This document shows positions 10,951-51,455 of a DNA stretch of 64,000 nt, piece by piece. Made by a program: the position numbers and the translations under genes. Numbering within the stretch: the stretch's first letter is position 1; every line of letters starts with the position of its first letter. This DNA comes from Rhodobacter sp. (GTDB taxonomy: Bacteria; Pseudomonadota; Alphaproteobacteria; Rhodobacterales; Rhodobacteraceae). The notes under the pieces were generated by a model. It saw only the letters and a list, made by a program, of their open reading frames with translations, was not told where the DNA came from and searched no databases. The stretch lies in NCBI GenBank assembly GCA_020250175.1, contig JADCEN010000029.1, positions 1 to 64,000 on the forward strand, written 5' to 3'.

Positions 10951-11096
10951 TTCGGCCCGCCGAAGCACCGTGCAGGTCCGATACCGCGAAGGACATTCTG
11001 GAACGGTGGTTCAGTTTTCGTTTCGTGCATCAGTTGCCCTGCAGGTACCTGGAGCGGGCGGAAGTTTGCCCGATCTTTTTCAACACCCTCCGATCC

Positions 11097-11220
11097 CGCG
11101 CCCGGACCGCCAAGGCCACGCTCCGGTGCAGCATGGCCCGGCCCAACACCCGAAGGCGCAAGCCGCAGGGCAAGATGGGTTGGGCCGGGGACGCGGCTGG
11201 TAAATCAGGCAAGAAAAAGA
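11097..11220 (+). repeat. Family II hairpin element, short copy C
   Basis: This 124-base block in the gap before pccA matches the left part of element B (51049-51336). It starts with CGCGCCCGGACCG, keeps the CCACGCTCC arm, the CGAAGGCGCAAGCCGCAGGGCAA segment and the GGTTGGGC box, then passes through AAATCAGGC (11202-11210) directly into the terminal AAGAAAAAG motif. The right arm of its first hairpin has decayed (GCAGCATGG instead of GGAGCGTGG). The middle of the element is missing. The rest of the 325-base gap, 10951-11096 and 11221-11275, shows no gene. Confidence 0.75.
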
Positions 11221-11275
11221 GGTGCGCCTTGATCCAGCCACGTCATTGCCGCATCGTCCAACAGCAAGGACTGCC

Positions 11276-39612: not shown

Positions 39613-41565
39613 ATGTCACCGCTTTGCCCCGCCCGTCTTCGCCATGGCCTGCGCCTTGTCGCGCTGGGTCTGTGTCTGGCCGCCCCCTGGCCCGTGCCGG
39701 CCGGCGAGGTCGCCGGTCTGCGCACGGCACTGGCCGCCGCCAGGGCAGAAGACTGGGCGGCGGCCATGGCGGCGGCCGAAGGCCAGGTGTCCGACGACAT
39801 CGTCGAATGGCTGCGCCTGCGGTCGGGCGAGGGGCTGCTGGACGAATATGAGGCATTCCAGCAGCGCCGCCCGGACTGGCCCGGCCTTGGCCTGTTGCGC
39901 GAAAAGGGCGAAGCGGCTGTGGCCCGGTCCACCTCGGCGGAACGGGTGCTGGCCTGGTTCAACGGCAGGCAACCCGAAACGGTGGAAGGGTCTTTCGCAC
40001 TGATCCGCGCCCATACCGCCCTTGGCCAGGCCGATGCCGCCCGGACCGAAGCGGTGCGGGCCTGGATTGACCTGTCCTTCACCGCTGACCAGGAGACGGC
40101 CCTGCTGGAGGCCTATCCAAAGGCCCTGGCAGAGGTGAATGAAACCCGGCTGGACCGGCTTTTGTGGGAAGGTGAGGTCACCGAAGCCGCGCGGATGCTG
40201 CCCAGGGTAGAGGCAGGCTGGCGCAAGCTGGCCGAAGCCCGCATCGCCCTGCGCCAGGATGCGCCCGGCGTGGACAGCGCGCTCAAGGCGGTGCCCGCAG
40301 CCCTGTCCGATCATCCCGGACTTGTCTATGAGCGGTTCATCTGGCGCATGCGCAAAGAGCGCTACGAAGATGCGGCCACCCTGATCGTTGCCAGCAGCAG
40401 CAGCGCCGAAACCCTGGGCCGGCCGGAAGACTGGGCCGAACGCCGCGCCCTGCTGGCCCGCCGCCTTTTGCGTGACGGCGATCCGCGCATGGCCTACCGC
40501 GTTGCCGCGTCGCACCATCTGGCGGGGGGCAGCGATTACGCCGATCTGGAATTCATCGCGGGTTTTGTCGCCCTGCGGCATCTGGGGGATGCACAGGCGG
40601 CGCTGGACCATTTCCGCAGGCTCAGCGCCGCCGTCGGCACGCCGATCAGCCTGGCGCGCGGTGCCTATTGGGAAGGCCGCGCGCTGGAGACGCTGGGTCA
40701 GACCGAGGCGGCACAGGCGGCCTTTGCGCGGGCGGCGCAGAACCAGACGGCCTATTACGGGCTTCTGGCTGCGGAACGTCTGGGAATACCGCTTGATCCG
40801 GCGATTCTGGGCGGGCAGCAATACCCGGATTGGCGGACGGCCTCTTTCGCGGGGTCGTCGGTGATGCAGGCGGCAATCCTGTTGCAGCAGGCCGGGGACC
40901 GGGCTTTGGCGAAACGGTTCCTTCTGCATCTGGCGGGCGGTCTGACTGCGCAGGAACTGGGCCAGCTGGGCGACATGGCGCTGTCCCTGGACGAGCCGCA
41001 TTTCGCGGTGCTGATCGGCAAGCAGGCGGCAGAGCGCGGCATCATCCTGCCACGTGTCCATTTCCCGGTGACCGATCTTGTGCCGGATGGCCTGGCGGTC
41101 AGCCGGGCGCTGGCCCTGTCGATCGCGCGGCGGGAAAGCGAGTTTGATCCGGGCGCGATCAGCCCGGCGGGCGCGCGCGGGCTGATGCAGGTGATGCCGG
41201 AAACCGCCCGCATGATGGCGACGAGGTTGGGAAAGGGCTTTGACCGGGCGCGTCTGACCAGCGATCCGGCCTATAATGCGGCCCTGGGGTCGGAATACCT
41301 CAAGGTGCTGCTGGACGAATTCGGACCATCGATCGCGCTGGTTGCCGCAGGCTACAACGCGGGGCCGGGCCGCCCGCGCGCCTGGGTCGAAAAGTTCGGT
41401 GACCCCCGGCGCGCGGACGTGGATGTGGTGGATTGGGTCGAAATGATCCCCTTCAGCGAAACCCGCACCTATGTGATGCGCGTGGCGGAATCGGTGGTGA
41501 TCTATCGTGCCAGGCTCAGCGGCGAAGCCGGGCCGGTGGACATCACCGGCGAATTGAAGGGCTGA
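39613..41565 (+). CDS. slt: Soluble lytic murein transglycosylase
   Basis: The 650-residue enzyme cleaves peptidoglycan to 1,6-anhydro products. A signal sequence ([16 protein letters not shown]) exports it. A long helical superhelical region (about 30-490), typical of Slt70, precedes the lysozyme-like domain. That domain has the catalytic Glu508 in [24 protein letters not shown], then [11 protein letters not shown] and [12 protein letters not shown] chose the ATG at 39613, which opens the signal peptide. It is divergent from dapA and followed by a hairpin at 41577. Confidence 0.93.
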
Positions 41566-41591: not shown

Positions 41592-41698
41592 ACACCGCCA
41601 GCATTCTTGTATCGCGCAGGTGTCGGCGTAATCGGGTGCAGGCCGAAGACAATGGGCGAAAATCTATCGGGAAACCGCGCGGACAGGCTGGAAACTGT

Positions 41699-42065
41699 GC
41701 GCCCAGAGGACTGACTGAAAACGCTCCTGTGGAGCGTTTTCACGGTCCGATTGCCGGAGGGCTTTAGCCCGCAGGCAAGGGGGTGAGGGCCGCCCGGACG
41801 ATCTGCCAGTGGCAGATCGTCAGGCCCGAACGCACTGCGCGCAAGCGCAGGGCCGGGAAGCCACCCTCCTGACGGCGGTAATCCGGCCGCGCCTGCCTGG
41901 GGCTGGCGCGGAATCGCGCCTGCCCAGGGGGTGATGAGCGATCAGAAATCGTCCTGTGGACGATTTCCGCGAAGAACGCCGCGCCCGTGGCGCGGCTGGA
42001 CGGCAGGCGCGGCCGTCGGGGCAGTGCCCCGACTTGACGCGGGCCAAATCCGACAAGAAGAAAAG
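41699..42065. repeat. Family II hairpin element, long copy A
   Basis: This intergenic block between slt and the DMT gene holds five perfect hairpins, each closed by an NGT triloop: 41717-41741 (11 bp, TGT), 41797-41821 (11 bp, AGT), 41945-41967 (10 bp, TGT), 41978-41996 (8 bp, CGT) and 42015-42033 (8 bp, AGT). It also has a compound stem with inner GGGC and GCCC arms around TTTA at 41757-41770. It ends in a CAAATCCGACAAGAAGAAAAGG tail. The second half matches copy B closely over about 150 bases. No reading frame across it resembles a protein family. The remainder of the 586-base gap is featureless apart from the slt hairpin. Confidence 0.85.
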
Positions 42066-42151
42066 GGCGCGCCATGCGCCGACCGAGTCATCGGAGCCTC
42101 ATCACGCTATAGGATATTCATGAACAGAAAATGGGGCTGGACGGAGCCGGG

Positions 42152-43024
42152 TCAGGGCCGGGTCCCGACCCTTTGCTGCCACAGGGTGAACAGCCCGGCG
42201 CAGACAACCACAGCGGCCCCGACAGCCACGTTCAGCTGCAGCACCTCGCCGAAGACGAAAATCCCGATGGCCGAGGCGAAGACCAGCTGCAGATAGGCAA
42301 AGGGTTGCACCGCGCTGGCTTCGGCTACCTCATAGGCGCGGATCAGCAGCCAGTGGGCCAAGGCCGCCGTGCAGCACAAAAGGCCCATCCAGCCCCAGTC
42401 GGCCCGCGTCATCGGCTCCCACGCCCATAGGCCGGGCGGGGTCATTGCCACCGCCCCGGCGATGCCTGTCCAGAAAAAGCTGACCGACGCCGTATCGCGG
42501 CGCGAGACGTAGCGCGTCAGCAGGCCATAAAGCGCGAACATAAAGGCCGACAGCAGCGGAACCAGCGCCACAGGCGAAAACACCCGCAGGCCGGGCTGCA
42601 GGATGATCAGGACACCGACAAAGCCTGTTGCGATGGCGATCCAGCGCCGCCAGCCCACCCTTTCGCCCAGAACGGGGCCGGACAGGGCGGCGACCAGCAG
42701 CGGGTAACAGGTGAAGACGGCATGGCTTTCGACCAGCCCCAGCATGACGAAGGCCAAAACCATGACGCAGACTTCTGCCGCCAGCAACACGCCGCGCGTG
42801 ATCTGCAGCACGGGATGGTGGCTGCGGACCGCGTTGCGCAGCCCGCCCGCCTTGCGTGCCGCCAGGGCAGTGACGAAGATGGCAAAGAACCAAAAGCGGA
42901 TCATCACCACCATGAAGACGCTGTATTCGCCCGCCAGATGCCGCGAGATACCGTCCTGCAGGGCAAAAACCAGCGTGGTGGCGATCATCAGCCAGATGCC
43001 CAGACGGGTGTTCTGTTCGGTCAT
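42152..43024 (-). CDS. DMT-superfamily transporter (EamA domains)
   Basis: The 290-residue protein has ten membrane helices forming two EamA repeats, the architecture of drug/metabolite exporters. Marks are LGIWLMIATTLVFALQDGISRHLA at the start, GRVGWRRWIAIATGFVGVLIILQPG near the middle, and the second repeat with YLQLVFASAIGIFVFGEVL. It exports an unidentified small metabolite across the inner membrane. Its ATG overlaps the mnmD stop by four bases, so the two are co-transcribed, although their functions look unrelated. Confidence 0.88.
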   Translation of the reverse strand: MTEQNTRLGIWLMIATTLVFALQDGISRHLAGEYSVFMVVMIRFWFFAIFVTALAARKAGGLRNAVRSHHPVLQITRGVLLAAEVCVMVLAFVMLGLVESHAVFTCYPLLVAALSGPVLGERVGWRRWIAIATGFVGVLIILQPGLRVFSPVALVPLLSAFMFALYGLLTRYVSRRDTASVSFFWTGIAGAVAMTPPGLWAWEPMTRADWGWMGLLCCTAALAHWLLIRAYEVAEASAVQPFAYLQLVFASAIGIFVFGEVLQLNVAVGAAVVVCAGLFTLWQQRVGTRP

Positions 43025-50946: not shown

Positions 50947-51048
50947 AGTGGAATTTTGTAGGCCACATTGCCTGTGGCGGATCATCACGTACCCTGGGGT
51001 ACTGGGTGCCATGACGGCTGGGCGAACAAATGCACTGCTTTCGAACAC

Positions 51049-51336
51049 CGCGCCCGGACCGAAAAGGCCACGCTCCAGTGGAGCGTGGCCCGGTCCGTTG
51101 CCCGAAGGCGCAAGCCGCAGGGCAAGGGGGGTTGGGCTGGGGATACGGCTGGCAAATCAGGCCGCGCCTGCCTGGGCGGGCGCGGTAACGCGCCTGCCAG
51201 GGGGTGATGAGCGATCAGAAATCGTCCGGTGGACGATTTCCGCGAAGAACGCCGCGCCCGTGGCGCGGCCGGGTGGCAGGCGCGGCCGTCGGGGCAGTGC
51301 CCCGACTTGACGCGGGTCAAATCAGGCAAGAAGAAA
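51049..51336. repeat. Family II hairpin element, copy B inside the cho operon
   Basis: This copy lies between choX and choW. It has four perfect NGT-loop hairpins: 51066-51090 (11 bp, AGT), 51218-51240 (10 bp, GGT), 51251-51269 (8 bp, CGT) and 51288-51306 (8 bp, AGT). A compound stem TTGCCC/GGGCAA encloses an inner GGC-GCAA-GCC hairpin near 51098-51124. The nine-base word AAATCAGGC occurs twice, at 51154-51162 and 51319-51327. From about 51190 on it matches copy A nearly base for base. No gene is visible in the 614-base gap. Confidence 0.85.
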
Positions 51337-51455
51337 GGGAATCGCGCAATGCTGGCCTGCGCAAGGATTCATGGTCATGGTCTGGAACACGTGCCGGTCC
51401 TGCCCGTAACTCCAACAAAGGTTGCCGTTCCGCCCTGCTGACCACACTTTGCCGT

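Follow-up and report, generated by a model that had tools for sequence, protein, structure and literature searches.

What kind of element is the cluster of perfect hairpins that occupies an intergenic region in the 64,000 nt stretch of Rhodobacter sp. DNA analysed here (the window)? The cluster lies in a convergent gap between a presumable lytic transglycosylase gene, which ends at 41565 on the + strand, and a gene which we take to encode an EamA-type transporter (42152–43024, − strand), both names being derived from the translations. Direct reading confirmed the five perfect hairpins of the original prediction at 41716–42033, but its stem range of 8 to 11 bp had to be corrected, as the longest stem comprises 12 bp and the others 11, 10, 8 and 8 bp. 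The triloops are all of the form NGT (TGT, AGT, TGT, CGT and AGT), as noted earlier, and the described CC before and GG after the loop is found in four of the five hairpins, the last one having GC on either side. The folding energy of the element corresponds to z = −8.8 on the + strand and z = −9.6 on the − strand, and no shuffled sequence equalled either value. Since, in addition, the architecture was found again in more than 100 copies, the hairpins are not a product of chance.

When copies were compared side by side, the true unit turned out to be larger than the five hairpins. A core of about 200 nt consists of unit A (the hairpins P1 and P2), a variable linker, P3, whose long stem encloses an inner hairpin, and P4. 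In the window the core extends from about 41700 to 42057 and is nested in a carrier reaching from about 41601, where its left end is truncated, to 42109 (Table 1). The window copy has three additions to the plain core: the linker carries module B, the P3 apex module D and P4 hairpin E. Its module B shows the closing motif GTGA...GAAC and an AGT triloop followed by a GCAA-capped hairpin, and its P3 encloses an inner hairpin (about 41903–41922) besides module D, a module which stands alone at six other places in the genome. Three levels of nesting are thus visible, namely modules within the core and the core within a carrier whose terminal inverted repeats adjoin TA. This S1 carrier is present in eight copies in the genome, including the one in the window, and has the ends (CTA)GAGCGTGATGATGATTGG ... 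CATCACGCTC(TA). In the window carrier the left terminal repeat is missing together with some 40 nt, and only carrier positions 41–129 are matched.

Table 1. Positions of the hairpins, of the larger units that contain them and of the further copies in the window
Feature	Position	Strand	Description
Hairpin 1	41716–41742	+	TGAAAACGCTCC-TGT-GGAGCGTTTTCA, 12 bp
Hairpin 2	41797–41821	+	GACGATCTGCC-AGT-GGCAGATCGTC, 11 bp
Hairpin 3 (first hairpin of module D)	41945–41967	+	GAAATCGTCC-TGT-GGACGATTTC, 10 bp
Hairpin 4 (second hairpin of module D)	41978–41996	+	GCCGCGCC-CGT-GGCGCGGC, 8 bp
Hairpin 5 (module E, within the 5′ strand of P4)	42015–42033	+	GTCGGGGC-AGT-GCCCCGAC, 8 bp; module E present in some copies only
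S1 carrier (MITE-like)	41601–42109	+	Its right-hand terminal inverted repeat lies within CATCGGAGCCTCATCACGCTATA, 42089–42111
Unit A (the core's 5′ unit)	41700–41781	+	Hairpins P1 (bulged, triloop TGT) and P2; score with the R1 covariance model 74.1 bits, E 1e-12
Module B (following GGCAAGGGG in the linker)	41780–41857	+	R2 model 84.9 bits; missing from most core copies
P3	41884–42015	+	Outer strands CGGCCGCGCCTGCC (41884–41897) and GGCAGGCGCGGCCG (42002–42015); inverted repeat 100% over 14 nt; 51-copy alignment
Module D (following GGGG at the apex of P3)	41928–42003	+	R2 model 81.2 bits
P4 remnant with the core's 3′ end	42034–42057	+	CAAATCCGACAAGAA
Second window copy	51048–51339	+	Unit A 51048–51128, module D 51201–51276, P3, module E, P4; R1 90 bits, R2 78.6 bits
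Third, decayed window copy	11096–11230	+	Unit A, linker, then AAATCAGGCAAGAA; R1 38.4 bits, E 1e-5

The second window copy is 92.5% identical to the first over the 3′ half. In the decayed third copy P3 has been lost between direct repeats. P4 contains the strand AAATCNGG twice and the complementary strand once, with a tendency for all three to change in step. We attribute the elements without P3 (the one at 11.1 kb of the window and those at loci L026 and L112) to deletions between the two copies of AAATCNGG.

Further copies with the same loop grammar, on which the original prediction hinged, do exist: about 35 are found in the window's genome alone (3.89 Mb), where a DNA search returned 116 matching pieces in approximately that number of clusters. 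Three congeners contain 28–38 copies and three others 1–3. A degenerate P2 pattern run against the genomes of 84,980 species matched 77 loci, whose records are labelled Rhodobacter, Rhodobacteraceae, Frigidibacter, Defluviimonas or Fuscibacter and, for three bins, only Proteobacteria/Alphaproteobacteria. The Frigidibacter copies have the same architecture with other stem sequences. Two covariance models were applied to 296 sampled Rhodobacteraceae genomes; R1, the model of unit A, found matches in 28 of them and R2, the model of the B and D modules, in 110, the copy numbers from these scans being lower bounds as 15–19 candidates were scored per genome. R2 also matched a few genomes of other families in the class. 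Two genomes of one such family (G439 and G537) have at least 11–12 matches each (loci L262, L264, L269 and L270); some of these R2-like modules carry an extra hairpin in the bulge and they possibly represent a separate expansion. Tandem arrangements were seen as well. In the window's genome four B-type modules of 88 nt, most of them with an extra bulge hairpin, form an array at L037 934–1290 (G000 C5:271933–272289), and complete elements follow each other in tandem at L101 1–900 (JADCEL010000057.1), two of them with a module B at the same P3 apex. No description of a hairpin repeat from Rhodobacter or the Rhodobacteraceae was found in the open-licence literature, and an earlier one may exist elsewhere; it is apparently a widespread, non-coding and previously undescribed family.

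Unit A and the modules B and D are built alike. Each has an outer helix, a short 5′ bulge to which the return strand of the first hairpin offers little or no counterpart, a stem of 10–12 bp with a CC-NGT-GG tip, and a second hairpin. Across copies the triloops are mostly AGT, GGT, TGT and GGG, and the end motifs GTGA and GAAC of the B and D modules are nearly invariant. As the search pattern included P2, the invariance of this hairpin is no evidence, whereas P1 lies outside the pattern. The original prediction also depended on compensatory changes in the stems, and these were found. Among 30 diverse copies of unit A 98.3% of the cells are paired, 12 pairs have changed on both sides, and 118 double-change cells were counted against 33 in shuffles (covariation 0.457 against 0.123). 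For the B and D modules the covariation is 0.480 against 0.130 in shuffles. A compensatory difference between two species at locus L046 was considered as proof of selection in place and was discarded, since replacement by another copy could explain it.

Covariation alone does not prove an RNA, and a comparison of G-U with A-C cells can separate DNA palindromes from RNA folds. Despite the compensatory changes the tolerance of G-U above A-C expected of a structured RNA was not observed overall: we counted 27 G-U and 20 A-C cells in unit A, 3 and 9 in P4, and 10 and 7 in the B and D modules, together 40 and 36. Transfer RNAs from the same loci, in contrast, showed 14 G-U and no A-C cells (Fisher P ~6e-4 against the repeat, for cells that are not independent and a sample of 12 tRNA genes). 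An exception is seen in 23 core copies, whose 3′ half (chiefly P3) has 11 G-U and 1 A-C. Because G-U and A-C are equally rare, unlike in tRNA, the stems behave like DNA palindromes and not like an RNA made from one strand; we read this as palindromes maintained at the DNA level, parts of which may also serve as RNA. Of the options originally offered, a protein-binding DNA array, in the form of a DNA palindrome recognised by a protein, is compatible with these counts and is favoured by the missing G-U preference.

The element had been said to resemble no known terminator, CRISPR repeat or REP, and we agree. The Rfam 15 search gave only a tRNA for the window at the gathering threshold and nothing credible, up to an E value of 5, for 11 loci. 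Reading of the sequence revealed no T-run behind the hairpins that would provide the U-run of an intrinsic terminator, no family of identical repeats with unique spacers of even length, as in a CRISPR array, was found, and neither a GTAG nor a CGTC tag is present.

We then considered the position relative to genes. The copies are intergenic and are situated almost exclusively behind genes. Neighbours were known for 39 copies, core and solo modules together; 16 of these are in convergent gaps, 23 in co-directional gaps and none in a divergent gap (P ~3e-7 to 2e-4 when the window serves as background), which points to selection at least against some sites. In the same tally, which includes solo modules, the co-directional copies are on the strand of the genes 12 times and on the opposite strand 11 times. 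In seven of the ten solo B copies found via R1 the module's TGA, once a TAA, is the in-frame stop codon of a long upstream frame; judging by the C-termini, the genes that end in this way are presumably asd, dnaJ, slt and others. The solo B-type modules that start exactly at the upstream stop codon are those of L219, L220, L221, L222, L225, L226 and L227 near 1500. In a wider set, which was partly selected for asd, GTGA provides the in-frame stop in 19 of 64 modules compared with 75 of 758 random GTGA sites. Without the module asd mostly ends with AAG-AAG-GGC-TGA or -TAA; where the module is present, as seen in six genera, the end reads AAG-AAG-GGG-TGA and the module comes next, and the end of the Asd protein is unchanged. 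Loci of this kind are L278, L287, L232, L241, L248 and L257. A G-run precedes modules elsewhere too, in P3 loops, in the linker and behind gene tails. Solo D modules are located about 28–46 nt behind stop codons on the same strand; those of L036, L039, L040, L041 and L051 come after a AAATAYCCTCGGGG-like tail behind the stop codon, and a GGGGGG...CCCCCC hairpin often follows them.

These positions could suggest that the two-hairpin unit is a structured cis-acting RNA of mRNA 3′ ends, under selection as an RNA that terminates, protects or regulates transcripts, with copies spreading only secondarily. In such an RNA the overlap of solo B modules with stop codons in the sense direction, the strand of the solo D modules, the strong covariation of unit A and the modules and the G-U excess in the 3′ half of the core would all be expected. 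GNRA-type P2 loops and apparent tandem G-A mismatches, which this explanation also invokes, suit an RNA as well and count against a purely mobile reading. For the core, however, an RNA made from one strand is weakened by the overall G-U and A-C counts and by the lack of an orientation bias with respect to genes; no Rfam family was recovered, and the patchy distribution and the nesting resemble those of mobile elements. On balance we regard the structured-RNA option of the original prediction as unlikely, though worth serious consideration.

The mobile miniature element, the remaining option of the original prediction, is the best supported one, being backed by the multiple copies, the nested modules and the presence or absence of copies between species. 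At one site (L042) the element is present in one species and absent in another; the flanks could not be aligned and gave no exact boundary, and the empty-site comparison revealed neither an exact target duplication nor a clean empty site for the core. From the presence or absence between species, the lineage-specific subfamilies and the nesting we infer spread by copying. As most copies examined are common to several species, current activity may be low. Two core copies in inverted orientation (L074 2174–2375 and 10185–10350), which are separated by about 8 kb and both occupy convergent gaps, are kept in synteny in related species (L075 and L076) and are old and vertically inherited. The RAYT/Y1 transposase (PF01797) was absent from all seven genomes of the genus, with controls behaving as expected, and from 14 of 15 repeat-bearing genomes, the exception being one weak match (L231, G269 C28:59645–59878). 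No protein family recurs beside the copies; the search for one gave just neighbours inherited by common descent and spurious frames over the repeats.

Old insertions could also persist as passive palindromes if template switching at hairpins copied one arm onto the other, with no selection for function. Nearly perfect Watson–Crick stems and the lack of a strand preference would result from such a process, and the change of AAATCNGG in step at three places is what arm-to-arm copying would give. But the near-invariant G and T of the loop, the bulge and the GTGA and GAAC motifs are kept in about 110 genera, which suggests a recogniser, and the absence from divergent gaps shows selection against some sites at least, so that we consider this explanation very unlikely. 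A MITE that a Tc1/IS630-type transposase moves by cut and paste, acting on the terminal repeats of the carrier at a TA target, is highly improbable for the family: the inverted ends of the S1 carrier copies match and adjoin TA, as in IS630/Tc1-type miniature elements, and the left arm has 20 matches in four congeners, but most core copies and the solo B and D modules lack terminal inverted repeats, no parent element was found, and the S1 subfamily is all that would be accounted for.

The closest resemblance is to REP/BIME repeats, which form superfamilies tagged GTAG and CGTC (PMC2817692, PMC3733652). Multiple intergenic palindromic copies per genome, a mosaic order, a preference for gene ends and lineage-specific subfamilies are common to both. 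The mainly alphaproteobacterial CGTC repeats share with the Rhodobacteraceae repeat the lack of a dedicated transposase (PMC3733652). REP/BIME repeats, however, are hairpins of 20–40 bp, usually in head-to-head dimers and with an unpaired GTAG or CGTC tag, the GTAG type being associated with a RAYT. The Rhodobacteraceae units comprise two unlike hairpins in direct order over 75–210 nt, have NGT triloops and no RAYT, show a 5′ motif GTGA that is predicted to pair with GAAC, and include modules that supply a stop codon. We set them apart from the REP/BIME members because they differ in tag, size, dimer and RAYT; the window element, though untagged, is nevertheless REP/BIME-like in its behaviour. 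In Escherichia coli, REPs no more than 15 nt away from a stop codon reportedly stall ribosomes, according to the summary in PMC12306157. In both cases a hairpin stands directly behind the stop codon, and in the Rhodobacteraceae modules the stop codon itself belongs to the repeat. Rhodobacter is not named in the REP/BIME surveys searched, and neither Rhodobacter nor Paracoccus is mentioned in PMC3733652 or PMC12306157.

We therefore favour, with slightly better than even confidence, an interspersed mobile hairpin mosaic of the Rhodobacteraceae that is REP/BIME-like without being a REP/BIME member. Its building block would be the two-hairpin module, in which the first hairpin combines a short 5′ bulge with the CC-NGT-GG tip. 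A putative trans-acting enzyme may recognise the module as a folded single DNA strand, move it via a single-stranded intermediate and insert it beside short G-runs (GGGG), at gene ends and into loops of palindromes that are already present; modules would thereby pile up inside one another. Type-B modules frequently start right at the stop codon of a gene and supply that codon, and there their hairpins may affect the 3′ end of the transcript, through termination, decay or ribosomes at the stop, as reported for E. coli REPs. We consider 3′-end effects probable. In a bolder version, which we offer tentatively and consider rather doubtful, the GTGA...CC-NGT-GG...GAACGC module would represent a mobile element of a new class that does not depend on Y1/RAYT transposases; it would insert after G-runs at the last codon, rebuild a glycine codon and the stop (GGG-TGA) and so provide genes in about 100 genera with a ready-made 3′ end as a cap.

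The family would add widespread hairpin repeats to a clade that the repeat surveys searched do not name, and it has seemingly spread without the known REP transposase. The overlap with stop codons offers a testable case in which a selfish hairpin would be rendered harmless by rebuilding the gene end, and a module at a stop codon may thereby tune termination or mRNA decay.
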